Assembly: GCF_018137945.1 (NCBI RefSeq)
Contig: NZ_CP073089.1
Span: forward strand, 2,232,001-2,296,000
DNA: 64,000 bases
Direction of reading: 5' to 3'
Origin: Brevibacterium sp. W7.2
GTDB taxonomy: Bacteria > Actinomycetota > Actinomycetes > Actinomycetales > Brevibacteriaceae
Made by a program: the position numbers and the translations under genes. The notes under the pieces were generated by a model. It was not told the DNA's origin, made no database searches, and saw nothing but the letters and a program-made list of their open reading frames with translations. Of this stretch, positions 39,428-44,943 are shown in pieces; position 1 is the stretch's first letter; each line of letters starts with the position of its first letter.

Positions 39428-40434
<1,007 letters not shown>

Positions 40435-41718: not shown

Positions 41719-42663
41719 ATGACACAACGCATCGTTTCCGCGCGTGGACTCGCCACGCAGCATGAGAACACCGTCCTCTCCGTCTGGTACCCGACCCTGA
41801 GCGTCGCCGACGATTTCACCGACGCCGAGGCGGCCGCCACCGCTCTCGCGTCCGAGGACGGACTCGACGCGCTGACCGGAGAGGATCCGGCCCGGGGAAC
41901 GACGACGACCGTGGTGACGACGACGATCGACCTCGACGAAGCCCCCGCCTCGGCGGCCGATGTCTACCTCCGCCTCCACGCGCTCTCCCACCGCATCGTC
42001 GTGCCCAACGACGTCAACCTCGACGGCATCTTCGGTCACATCGCCAACGTCGTGTGGACCTCGGCGGGTGCCTGCTCGCCCGAGGGCTTCGAGGCCACCC
42101 GCGCGAAGCTGCTCGCCAACGGCCCCGTCGCGGTCTTCGGCCTCGACAAGTTCCCGCGGATGACGGACTTCGTCATCCCCTCCGGTGTGCGCATCGGCGA
42201 CGCCGACCGGGTCCGCCTCGGGGCACATCTGGCCCCGGGCACGACGGTCATGCATGAGGGCTTCGTCAACTTCAACGCCGGCACCCTGGGTTCGGCGATG
42301 GTCGAGGGACGCATCTCGCAGGGCGTCGTCGTCGGTGACGGGTCGGACGTCGGCGGCGGGGCCTCGATCATGGGCACGCTCTCCGGGGGCGGCACGCACC
42401 GCATCTCGATCGGCACGGGCAGCCTGCTCGGCGCGAACTCCGGTGTCGGCATCTCGATCGGCGACGACTGCATCGTCGAGGCCGGCCTCTATCTGACCGC
42501 CGGCACGCGCGTGAGCGTGCTCGGCGACGACGAGCGGGTCGTCAAGGCCTCCGAGCTCAGCGGAGCGAGCAACATCCTCTTCCGCCGCAACTCCGTCACC
42601 GGTGCCGTCGAGGCGATCGCGCGCTCGGCCAAGGGCATCGAGCTCAATCCCGACCTCCACTGA
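41719..42663 (+). CDS. dapD: 2,3,4,5-tetrahydropyridine-2,6-dicarboxylate N-succinyltransferase
   Basis: The 314-residue protein is the actinobacterial DapD type. The N-terminal domain contains a [20 protein letters not shown] segment, and a left-handed parallel beta-helix follows with hexapeptide-like repeats ([57 protein letters not shown]). It transfers succinate from succinyl-CoA to tetrahydrodipicolinate, the step before DapC. It is probably leaderless (TAGGCT seven bases before the ATG). A strong U-tract terminator follows 65 bases after the stop. Confidence 0.95.
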
Positions 42664-42727
42664 GGTCTGAGGCGGTCGCTGAAAGACGGCACCTCGATTC
42701 GCACCCGCGCCGATCGGGTTCGTGGGC

Positions 42728-42772
42728 AGCCCTCCGGAACCGAGCAATCGCCTCGGTGCCGGAGGGCTTTTT
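42728..42772 (+). terminator. Terminator of dapD with U-tract
   Basis: AGCCCTCCGG pairs with CCGGAGGGCT (42759-42768), with an inner CCGAG/CTCGG helix, and is followed by TTTTT. The outer stem has the same sequence as part of the gltA terminator at 43587-43643. Confidence 0.88.
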
Positions 42773-42823
42773 CGCTGCGCTGCCCGGCCGGGCCGCCGGA
42801 AGGACGAACGACCGCGGATGAGG

Positions 42824-43573
42824 GCGGCCGCTCCGGCAACCCCGCACCCGGAGCCTCACACACAACCCGTGCACGCGTAGGACAAGCGACTCCGCGGTGT
42901 GCGTGCAAAGCCACGCGGTGTGAATCGCGCTGCAGGTTGTTCAACGACCTTTGGGTTGTTTATCGGCTTGCGGGACGCGAATTCGGCAGCCGCTTTGGCA
43001 ACCCCGCACACGGAGGTTCACACACAACCCGTGCGGGCGTAGGACAAGCGACTCCGCGGTGTGCATGCGAAGCTACGCGGTGTGCCTCGCGCTGCAGGTT
43101 GTTCAACGACCTCTGGGGTGTTTATCGGCTTGCGGAGCGCGAAGTGGGCAGCCGCTTTGGCAGCCCCGCACCCGGAGCTTCACACACAACCCGTGCACGC
43201 GTAGGAGACGCGACTCCGGGGTGTGCGTGCGAAGCCCCACGGTGTGCATCGCGCGACGCGGTGTGCATCGCGCGACGCGGTGTGCATCGCGCGACGCGTT
43301 GTGTATCGCACTCCGGGTTGTTCAACGGGTTGCGGGGCGCGAAGTGGGCAGCCGCTTTGGCAGCCCGCACCCGGAGCTTCACACACAACCCGTGCACGCG
43401 TAGGAGACGCGACTCCGGGGTGTGCGTGCAGAGAGCCACGCGGTGTGCCTCGCGCTGCAGGTTGTGTGCGGCACTCAGGGTTGTGGTCGGAATTGCGGTG
43501 AGTTCAAGCGTGCCTGGTGGTGATCGGCGCCCCGGGTGGTGAGCGGCGCTGCAAGTTGTGATCGGCACCGCGA
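42824..43573. repeat. 19-bp-periodic repeat array with four 162-bp super-units
   Basis: The region between the dapD and gltA terminators consists of degenerate 19-bp units (consensus close to GGTTGTGATCGGCNCTGCN). Eight units plus 10 bp form a super-unit of 162 bp. The anchor TCACACACAACCCG begins near 42856, 43018, 43180 and 43379 (offsets 162, 162, 199). The third interval is longer because CGGTGTGCATCGCGCGACG is repeated about three times (43240-43300). Seven further 19-bp units (43441-43573) follow without the anchor block. Open frames across it have no family resemblance and are not called genes. Confidence 0.8.
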
Positions 43574-43586
43574 TCACCCCAGACGA

Positions 43587-43643
43587 CAGCAGCCCTCCGG
43601 TTGCTCAGCCACGGACGGTGGCGGAGCAACCGGAGGGCTGCTG
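43587..43643 (-). terminator. Terminator of gltA
   Basis: A perfect 20-bp stem (arms 43587-43606 and 43624-43643, containing GCAGCCCTCCGG) has a 17-nt loop that can itself form a CCAC/GTGG helix. It starts 16 bases after the gltA stop. Confidence 0.85.
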
Positions 43644-43659
43644 GAGTGGAGAGAGAAAC

Positions 43660-44943
43660 TCAGCGCTCGCTGATGTCCTCGTAGTCGCGGGAGACCGCGC
43701 CGGTGTAGACCTGGCGGGGACGGCCGATGCGTGTCTCGGGGTCGTTGATCATCTCGCGCCACTGGGCGATCCAGCCCGGGAGGCGACCGACGGAGAAGAG
43801 CACCGTGAACATGTTCGTCGGGAAGCCGAGCGCCTTGTAGATCAGGCCGGTGTAGAAGTCGACGTTCGGGTAGAGCTTGCGCTCGACGAAGTAATCGTCG
43901 GCCAGCGCGATCTCCTCGAGCTGCATCGCGAGCTCGAGCAGCGGGTCGCCGCCGTTGCGGGCGAGCACCTCGTCGGCGGTCTTCTTGATGATCTTCGCGC
44001 GCGGGTCGTAGTTCTTGTACACCCGGTGGCCGAAGCCCATGAGGCGCACGCCCTCTTCCTTGTTCTTCACGCGCTCCATGAACTTCTTCGGACCGTCGTC
44101 GGAGGCCGCGATCGACTGGAGCATCTCGAGCACCGCTGAGTTCGCACCGCCATGCAGGGGGCCGGCCAGGGCGTTGATGCCCGCGGAGATCGACTGGAAG
44201 ATGTTCGCCTGGGCAGAGCCGACGAGGCGGACGGTCGACGTCGAGCAGTTCTGCTCGTGATCGGCGTGGAGGATGAAGAGCTGATCCATCGCCTTGACCG
44301 CCAGCGGGTCCGGCTCGTAGGGCTCGGACGGCACACCGAAGTTCACCCGGAGGAAGTTCTCCACGAGGCTGAGCGAGTTGTCCGGGTGGATGACGGGCAG
44401 GCCCATGTTCTTCCGGTGCGCGAGCGCCGCGATCGTCGGCATCTTCGCGAGCAGCCGGTAGGACGAGGTGTCGACCTGCTCCTCGTCAAAAACATCGAGG
44501 TCATCTTGGTAGAAAGTCGACAAAGCCGCGACAGCGGCTGAAACCATGGGCATCGGGTGCGCATCGTAGGGGAACGCACGGAAGAACCGACGCAGATCCT
44601 CGTGGACGATCGTGTGCTTGCGCAGACGCGAATCGAAGGCATCGTACTGCTCCTGAGTGGGCAGGTCGCCGTGGATGAGGAGGTAGCAGACTTCGACGAA
44701 GTTCGACTTCTCCGCGAGCTGCTCGATCGGGTAGCCCCGGTACTGCAGAACGCCGGCGTTGCCGTCGATGTAGGTGATCGCCGAGGAGGTCGATGCGGTG
44801 TTGCCGAATCCCGGGTCGTAGGTGACGGCTCCGGTCTCCTTGAGCAGAGAGCCGATGCGATATCCGTTGTTGCCCTCAGTGGCCGGCACTTCTGGCAGTG
44901 CCAGGTCCGTATCGGCAATCCTGAGATTCGCTTCGGTCGGCAT
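43660..44943 (-). CDS. gltA: Citrate synthase (type II)
   Basis: The 427-residue protein matches hexameric-type citrate synthase in length. Catalytic residues are visible: His in HADHEQNCSTST, His in GPLHGGANSAV and Asp in GHRVYKNYDPRA. YRGYPIEQLAEKS marks the N-terminal domain. It condenses acetyl-CoA with oxaloacetate at the entry of the TCA cycle. GAGGAG lies five bases before the ATG. A likely -10 (TAGTCT, 45007-45012) gives a leader of about 55 nt that contains a perfect 19-nt palindrome, and two more inverted repeats lie further upstream, so the gene is probably regulated. Confidence 0.96.
   Translation of the reverse strand: MPTEANLRIADTDLALPEVPATEGNNGYRIGSLLKETGAVTYDPGFGNTASTSSAITYIDGNAGVLQYRGYPIEQLAEKSNFVEVCYLLIHGDLPTQEQYDAFDSRLRKHTIVHEDLRRFFRAFPYDAHPMPMVSAAVAALSTFYQDDLDVFDEEQVDTSSYRLLAKMPTIAALAHRKNMGLPVIHPDNSLSLVENFLRVNFGVPSEPYEPDPLAVKAMDQLFILHADHEQNCSTSTVRLVGSAQANIFQSISAGINALAGPLHGGANSAVLEMLQSIAASDDGPKKFMERVKNKEEGVRLMGFGHRVYKNYDPRAKIIKKTADEVLARNGGDPLLELAMQLEEIALADDYFVERKLYPNVDFYTGLIYKALGFPTNMFTVLFSVGRLPGWIAQWREMINDPETRIGRPRQVYTGAVSRDYEDISER

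Follow-up and report, generated by a model that had tools for sequence, protein, structure and literature searches.

The chromosome of Brevibacterium sp. W7.2 (G000; 3,861,567 bases, one contig) carries, between the convergent genes dapD and gltA, a non-coding array of degenerate 19-bp repeats, raising the question of what such an array is and whether anything in the cell reads it. We analyzed it within a 64,000-nucleotide stretch of this chromosome, hereafter the window, and compared it with the rest of the genome, with other Brevibacterium genomes and with other genera. Among the matches listed, the nearest named records of DapD are those of B. iodinum ATCC 49514 and Brevibacterium sp. S111, at 85% identity.

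Setting and module plan of the dapD–gltA array

The dapD–gltA gap spans 996 bp, with a strong stem-loop at either end and the array (42851-43570) inside. The initial annotation had placed the array between two facing terminators. There is indeed a stem on each side, and five T follow the one past dapD, but the stem past gltA has no T run and a consensus terminator scan lists neither of the two. Upstream, at 40208-40393, the window holds a 72/90-bp plus 18-bp tandem repeat, lying in the low-complexity start of a coding frame adjoining dapE.

Both reported periods, 19 and 162 bp, stand far above shuffled background. Tandem Repeats Finder identifies a period of 162 at 42823-43254 (88% matches), of 19 at 43240-43309 (3.7 copies, 96%) and of 200 at 43055-43455 (87%), and the autocorrelation of 42824-43590 peaks at lags 162 (z 16.6), 19 (z 11.4) and 324 (z 8.2) relative to 200 mononucleotide shuffles. 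The four anchors at offsets of 162, 162 and 199 bp were likewise borne out, but the proposed composition of the super-unit, 8 x 19 + 10 bp, was not. Each module instead comprises a head, made up of an inverted 19-bp unit, a 4-bp centre and a direct unit, followed by further direct units every 19 or 21 bp and, at its end, by approximately 40 bp that score as no unit or weakly. Each super-unit, of 162 or 199 bp, repeats the entire module including the final 40 bp or so, and its inverted unit had been overlooked. The 4-bp centre is TGCA in three of the four window modules. The tail, previously read as seven plain 19-bp units, contains six that score in 43439-43570, at steps of 19, 19, 37, 19 and 19 bp. 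The features of the region are as follows.

41719-42663, + strand: dapD, upstream flank of the array gap
42728-42773, + strand: terminator-like stem-loop past dapD, then five T (sequence; RNA fold -32.4 kcal/mol, z -4.1)
42851-42892, + strand: head 1, inverted unit 42851-42869, TGCA 42870-42873, direct unit 42874-42892 (unit matrix; dyad operator match 42863-42880)
42893-42970, + strand: module 1 direct units, starts 42893, 42914, 42933, 42952 (unit matrix)
43013-43054, + strand: head 2, inverted unit 43013-43031, centre TGCG 43032-43035, direct unit 43036-43054 (unit matrix)
43055-43132, + strand: module 2 direct units, starts 43055, 43076, 43095, 43114 (unit matrix)
43175-43216, + strand: head 3, inverted unit 43175-43193, TGCA 43194-43197, direct unit 43198-43216 (unit matrix; operator match 43187-43204)
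43217-43332, + strand: module 3 direct units, starts 43217, 43238, 43257, 43276, 43295, 43314 (unit matrix; contains the near-identical 19-bp run 43240-43309)
43374-43415, + strand: head 4, inverted unit 43374-43392, TGCA 43393-43396, direct unit 43397-43415 (unit matrix; operator match 43386-43403)
43416-43570, + strand: module 4 and tail direct units, starts 43416, 43439, 43458, 43477, 43514, 43533, 43552 (unit matrix)
43587-43643, - strand: strong stem-loop past gltA, without a T run (RNA fold -55.3 kcal/mol, z -10.1)
43660-44943, - strand: gltA, downstream flank of the array gap

The unit was defined by training a weight matrix with EM on 20 array regions, the window array among them, and its consensus, from 256 sites, is CGSGKWGTGYGTGSGGCTS. 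In 19 of the 20 regions, a direct unit begins 4 bp past the end of an inverted one; in the remaining region, L167, the direct partner falls below threshold. Steps of 23 bp are of the inverted-to-direct kind in 37 of 39 cases, while steps between direct units are mostly 19 bp (112) or 21 bp (24). Within the 64 kb the matrix, itself trained partly on the array, scores 13 sites in the array and none elsewhere at a threshold of at least 14 bits, 17 and 4 at a threshold of at least 12 bits, and 23 and 17 at a threshold of at least 10 bits. Unit sequence varies from locus to locus, and a first, earlier guess at the pattern had matched in the window only. The head is captured by the dyad CWMC-N3-TGCA-N3-GKWG, in which the core word GKWG corresponds to unit positions 4-7; this operator pattern has three matches in the window, all within the array, where 0.01 are expected, and misses head 2 because the centre there is TGCG rather than TGCA.

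The earlier statement that the array is not CRISPR-like holds: the regular spacing recalls CRISPR, but the degenerate units abut directly, so that the unit itself is the period, and there are no unique spacers. Coding sequence was also rejected, as three ORFs across the array lack a Pfam match, a codon-based caller places no gene in the gap, and 19 is not a multiple of three.

A dispersed family with a constrained unit

The array had been taken for a single locus, but it belongs to a family scattered over the chromosome. Searching the G000 genome at the DNA level yielded 17 places, and R1, a sequence profile built from 22 heads, gave 69 matches (palindromes counted on both strands), which correspond to about 19 loci in the chromosome. 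Convergent gene pairs flank 14 of the 19 loci, compared with 11 of 47 gene pairs in the window (p 2e-4), where orientation comes from a crude codon-based caller that missed the gene between the L023 heads and where the 47 pairs include dapD-gltA. Among paralogous heads, the asymmetric core occurs in two orientations. At L023 5836-6873 (G000:C1 2617835-2618872), two direct heads enclose a protein-kinase-like gene (PF00069, E 1e-8) whose third-position GC is low; the counterpart of this locus in the sister genome G073 (L179; DapD 99% identical between the genomes) has one degenerate head and no kinase-like gene. At L024 5143-6264 (G000:C1 2641142-2642263), two oppositely oriented R1 matches flank a gene with DUF559 / MTES_1575 endonuclease-like matches.

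Duplicated modules within a locus allow the divergence of individual unit positions to be compared. Positions 4 and 7 were left out when the register was set; over the 12 loci used, 16 of 579 comparisons (2.8%) show a difference at G4 and G7, versus 247 of 1,937 (12.8%) at the other G's of the unit. The rate is lower in all 12 loci (sign test p 5e-4), and the sign test is the safe figure, as the pairwise counts are non-independent. Within heads, 0 of 284 comparisons show a difference at G4 and G7, versus 7.8% of 930 for other G's; in direct units the values are 5.4% of 295 and 17.3% of 1,007, with the lower rate in 10 of 12 loci (p 0.04). The TGCA centre differs in 9 of 192 comparisons (4.7%) and bases outside units in 22-23%, and the G4/G7 contrast persists when CpG is left out. 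This low divergence indicates constraint and argues against a purely neutral satellite. Constraint at fixed unit positions, the mark of a protein-binding array, is therefore present in the family, and is weaker in direct units alone.

Selection could in principle act on RNA rather than DNA, with the array serving as a transcribed structured RNA or a bidirectional terminator whose hairpins are the selected feature. Many arrays do lie between convergent genes, and the heads of L167 (z -5.5) and L188 (z -7.5) fold very strongly; against this, the window heads fold like shuffles (z 0.37 to -1.94), and mismatches between arms are G-T in 49 cases and A-C in 61, so that there is no G-T excess and no RNA-wobble signature. 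None of the 12 Rfam matches in 42600-43700, with E up to 1, reaches its gathering score, and a scan restricted to promoters of the sigma-70-like type finds none in 42600-43720. We therefore consider this explanation improbable. Complementarity between the arms stems mainly from both being copies of the unit. Locus-specific matching of arms is modest (own 0.577, swapped 0.545; z 2.6 for the whole arm and 3.7 for positions 6-17, with 10 of 64 heads excluded because their centre departs from TGCA by two bases or more). Taken alone, G061, a species with about 87% identity to G000, does not reach significance. The hairpin as a conserved feature was rejected on this modest matching and on RNAalifold, which returns four pairs without covariation for the heads. 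Rho-site and G-quadruplex readings were weighed by eye and set aside.

Repeated constraint on the unit, a constrained dyad, the lack of an RNA signature and a site between the stem-loops of convergent genes together fit a protein-docking array. We thus propose, at a probability of roughly one half, that the dapD-gltA array is one of about 19 dispersed intergenic arrays likely to be docking sites for a putative DNA-binding protein that would recognize a mirrored operator and GNNG cores. Of the options offered by the initial annotation, a binding array fits best, the protein being putative. Such a protein would bind the mirrored operator at each head, where the dyad may nucleate binding, and would also contact the GNNG core of the 19-bp units that follow. 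Its effect might be to block, insulate or relieve convergent transcription, as a roadblock, an insulator, or a dock for topoisomerase or a nucleoid protein. Among the points against docking, a 19-bp spacing does not amount to full helical turns, which would place neighbouring units on different faces of the DNA, and the unit profile was learned on these same arrays.

Turnover in close relatives and competing origins

R1 has 23 matches in G061, 10 in G073, one or two in each of four more genomes and none in 50 of the 57 Brevibacterium genomes. The earlier suggestion of repeated duplication under constraint agrees with the comparison of dapD-gltA gaps, in which G073 has one head and the window four, and with the two unit positions that diverge far less than others. 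Where both flanks align, the G000 gap is longer in all six comparisons with G073, the extra gene at L023 contributing about 1 kb, and in 8 of 12 with G061; the remaining four G061 gaps are L183 and L188, which have extra ORFs, L196, which is of similar length, and L189. A head lies inside the gap that holds a G000 array in 10 of 15 stretches fetched from G061; of the others, L186 has its head at a different gap of the same stretch and four do not align to an array stretch. At the orthologous sites G000:C1 2010774 and G073:C2 303860, the asymmetric head core is reverse-complemented, giving the two orientations also seen among paralogous heads. In G061 itself, the dapD-gltA gap (L183 3391-5180) measures 2.7 kb and contains ORFs of 333 and 263 aa without a Pfam match rather than a long array, while at L188 4700-5600 a 158-aa ORF, also without a Pfam match, sits between two palindromic heads that are near-perfect and share one direct orientation. 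The arms of the L188 heads differ by a compensated G-C to C-G change.

These comparisons bear on the possibility that the family is a neutral bacterial satellite, a set of mosaic repeats that grow and turn over by slippage, template switching and gene conversion wherever extra DNA is harmless. The fast change in copy number seen in the gap lengths, the similarity of modules within a locus, the rewriting of sequence between clades and the occurrence of head cores in both orientations are all consistent with such an origin, and neutral DNA is best tolerated in convergent gaps. Turnover alone, however, would not spare two G's of the unit and the TGCA centre, and we regard a neutral satellite as possible but rather unlikely.

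Dispersed copies within one genome could also reflect a non-autonomous mobile element of the REP or MITE kind, spread by a transposase. The lexA gap is occupied in G000, G061 and G073 while lag 19 is missing in 26 other genomes, and the core GKWG recalls the GTAG tag of REPs. Yet the 10 G061 heads that share gaps with G000 arrays indicate descent in place, and a search confined to the RAYT family (PF01797) was negative in all 57 genus genomes and positive in 5 of 14 control genomes. The window array has no match in 72,556 plasmid records or in phage records, and one 20-bp head pattern has no exact match in viral contigs; plasmid, phage and viral origins were dropped on these results. REP/BIME with RAYT was rejected on the absence of PF01797, and a mobile element of any such kind appears quite improbable. 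As in the BIME-2 mosaics of E. coli, the Brevibacterium arrays are intergenic mosaics of short units in both orientations. According to the available text of PMC6379681, BIME-2 mosaics house gyrase cleavage sites and may be protein docks, which makes docking by arrays of this kind possible. The Brevibacterium arrays differ from BIME-2 and REPs in their 19-bp units, which may lack a hairpin of their own, and in the lack of RAYT in the 57 genomes. A survey of GTAG/CGTC repeats, in its accessible portion, names other phyla, with Actinobacteria not among them (PMC3733652).

The genes situated between heads recall a further option, also raised at the outset as a recombination locus, namely an iteron-like replication or recombination site that captures genes. 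Plasmid iteron arrays repeat a unit of about 19-22 bp in inverted and direct orientation, much as the Brevibacterium arrays do with their units of about 19 bp. In a few cases a gene sits between two heads, and the kinase-like gene is missing at the G073 site, but this support is weak. The Brevibacterium arrays differ from iterons in lacking a plasmid match and in occupying about 19 scattered chromosomal loci, among which the unit sequence differs, and we consider an iteron-like site very improbable.

The 19-bp period in other clades and genera

In dapD-gltA gaps of other Brevibacterium, lag 19 ranks first at a pooled z of 11.9, the next being 5.3 at lag 16, and exceeds z 2 in 13 of 21 gaps; the pooled value is inflated because the genomes are related. 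The 21 gaps, of 27, are each longer than 250 bp and exclude G000 and G073 (L131 and L132 have no gap, and L108, from G061, was not entered). Ten mutually dissimilar representatives give a pooled lag-19 z of 8.7, with the next at 3.4. At this locus GKWG words are spaced 18, 19, 21 and 37-40 bp apart, with additional spacings of 10 and 25 bp in the full set. The arrays of other clades are spelled differently, their sequence having been rewritten: R2, a profile built from clade A heads, has hits in 26 of 57 genomes, as many as 20 in a single genome, with G000, G061 and G073 not among them, and R3, the clade B profile, matches 23 of 57, strongly at dapD and weakly elsewhere. Divergence in clade B is 18% for chain cores, 29% for the rest of the unit and 34% for isolated GKWG (one of 10 reference rows runs opposite); the corresponding clade A values, 18%, 24% and 19%, show a weak contrast. 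The units that follow the head are less constrained than the head itself, and in clade A constraint is weak.

The other loci compared are less regular. Lag 19 exceeds z 2 at lexA in 0 of 26 other-clade loci among those listed, and at PEPCK, with a mixed outcome, in 5 of 27 (pooled z 2.2, with lags 16 and 21 reaching 5.0); the first 350 bp of the PEPCK gap of G000 itself give a lag-19 z of -1.0. None of the dapD, lexA and PEPCK loci fetched from other clades contains the exact operator, and comparisons at all three cover the first 30 loci each, so that the most distant clade lies outside them. The absence of signal at lexA outside the clade of G000 and the mixed result at PEPCK speak against generality of the arrays.

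A broader form of the docking proposal, which we put forward tentatively and judge unlikely, is that operator-nucleated 19-bp docking arrays occur genus-wide, mostly between convergent genes, and are recoded from clade to clade and read by an undescribed, co-evolving DNA-binding protein, the architecture being kept while the letters are rewritten. They would then be a bacterial counterpart of roadblock or insulator arrays. In eukaryotic rDNA, TTF-I and Reb1 roadblock arrays place short repeated protein sites where transcription ends; the analogy to the Brevibacterium arrays, with their putative protein, would be functional only. If protein-bound, the arrays would constitute a chromosome-wide non-coding code in a bacterial genus, sited where convergent transcription meets, and the dyad with a few units would offer a compact bait for finding the protein. 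Should their function prove modest, a periodicity that persists through the rewriting of sequence between clades would still provide a good test case for satellite-like turnover versus selection in bacteria, and module number may serve strain typing. A literature search on Brevibacterium repeats, palindromic or intergenic arrays and 19-bp repeats, covering mostly journals open without subscription, found no description of such arrays; the available text of PMC6579920 and PMC5719810 speaks of repeats belonging to CRISPR, insertion sequences and an island.

Beyond the genus, lag 19 ranks first at z of at least 5 in 0 of 17,812 windows from 77 dapD loci of other genera, by a strict test that is insensitive, passing two windows in the 64 kb, three in G000 stretches and two in genus dapD loci. 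Since so few Brevibacterium windows pass, absence in other genera is weak evidence. Among 198 genomes searched, R1 matches 8 from outside the genus, once each, with E of 1.9e-4 to 8.7e-4. Five of the eight were dismissed as chance (lag-19 z no higher than 1.2, with one unit match at best), as was the single R1 match of G016 (lag-19 z 1.0). Downstream of PEPCK at L237 (G025), in the same gap as a G000 array, lies a near-perfect and very long palindrome whose arm measures about 20 bp.
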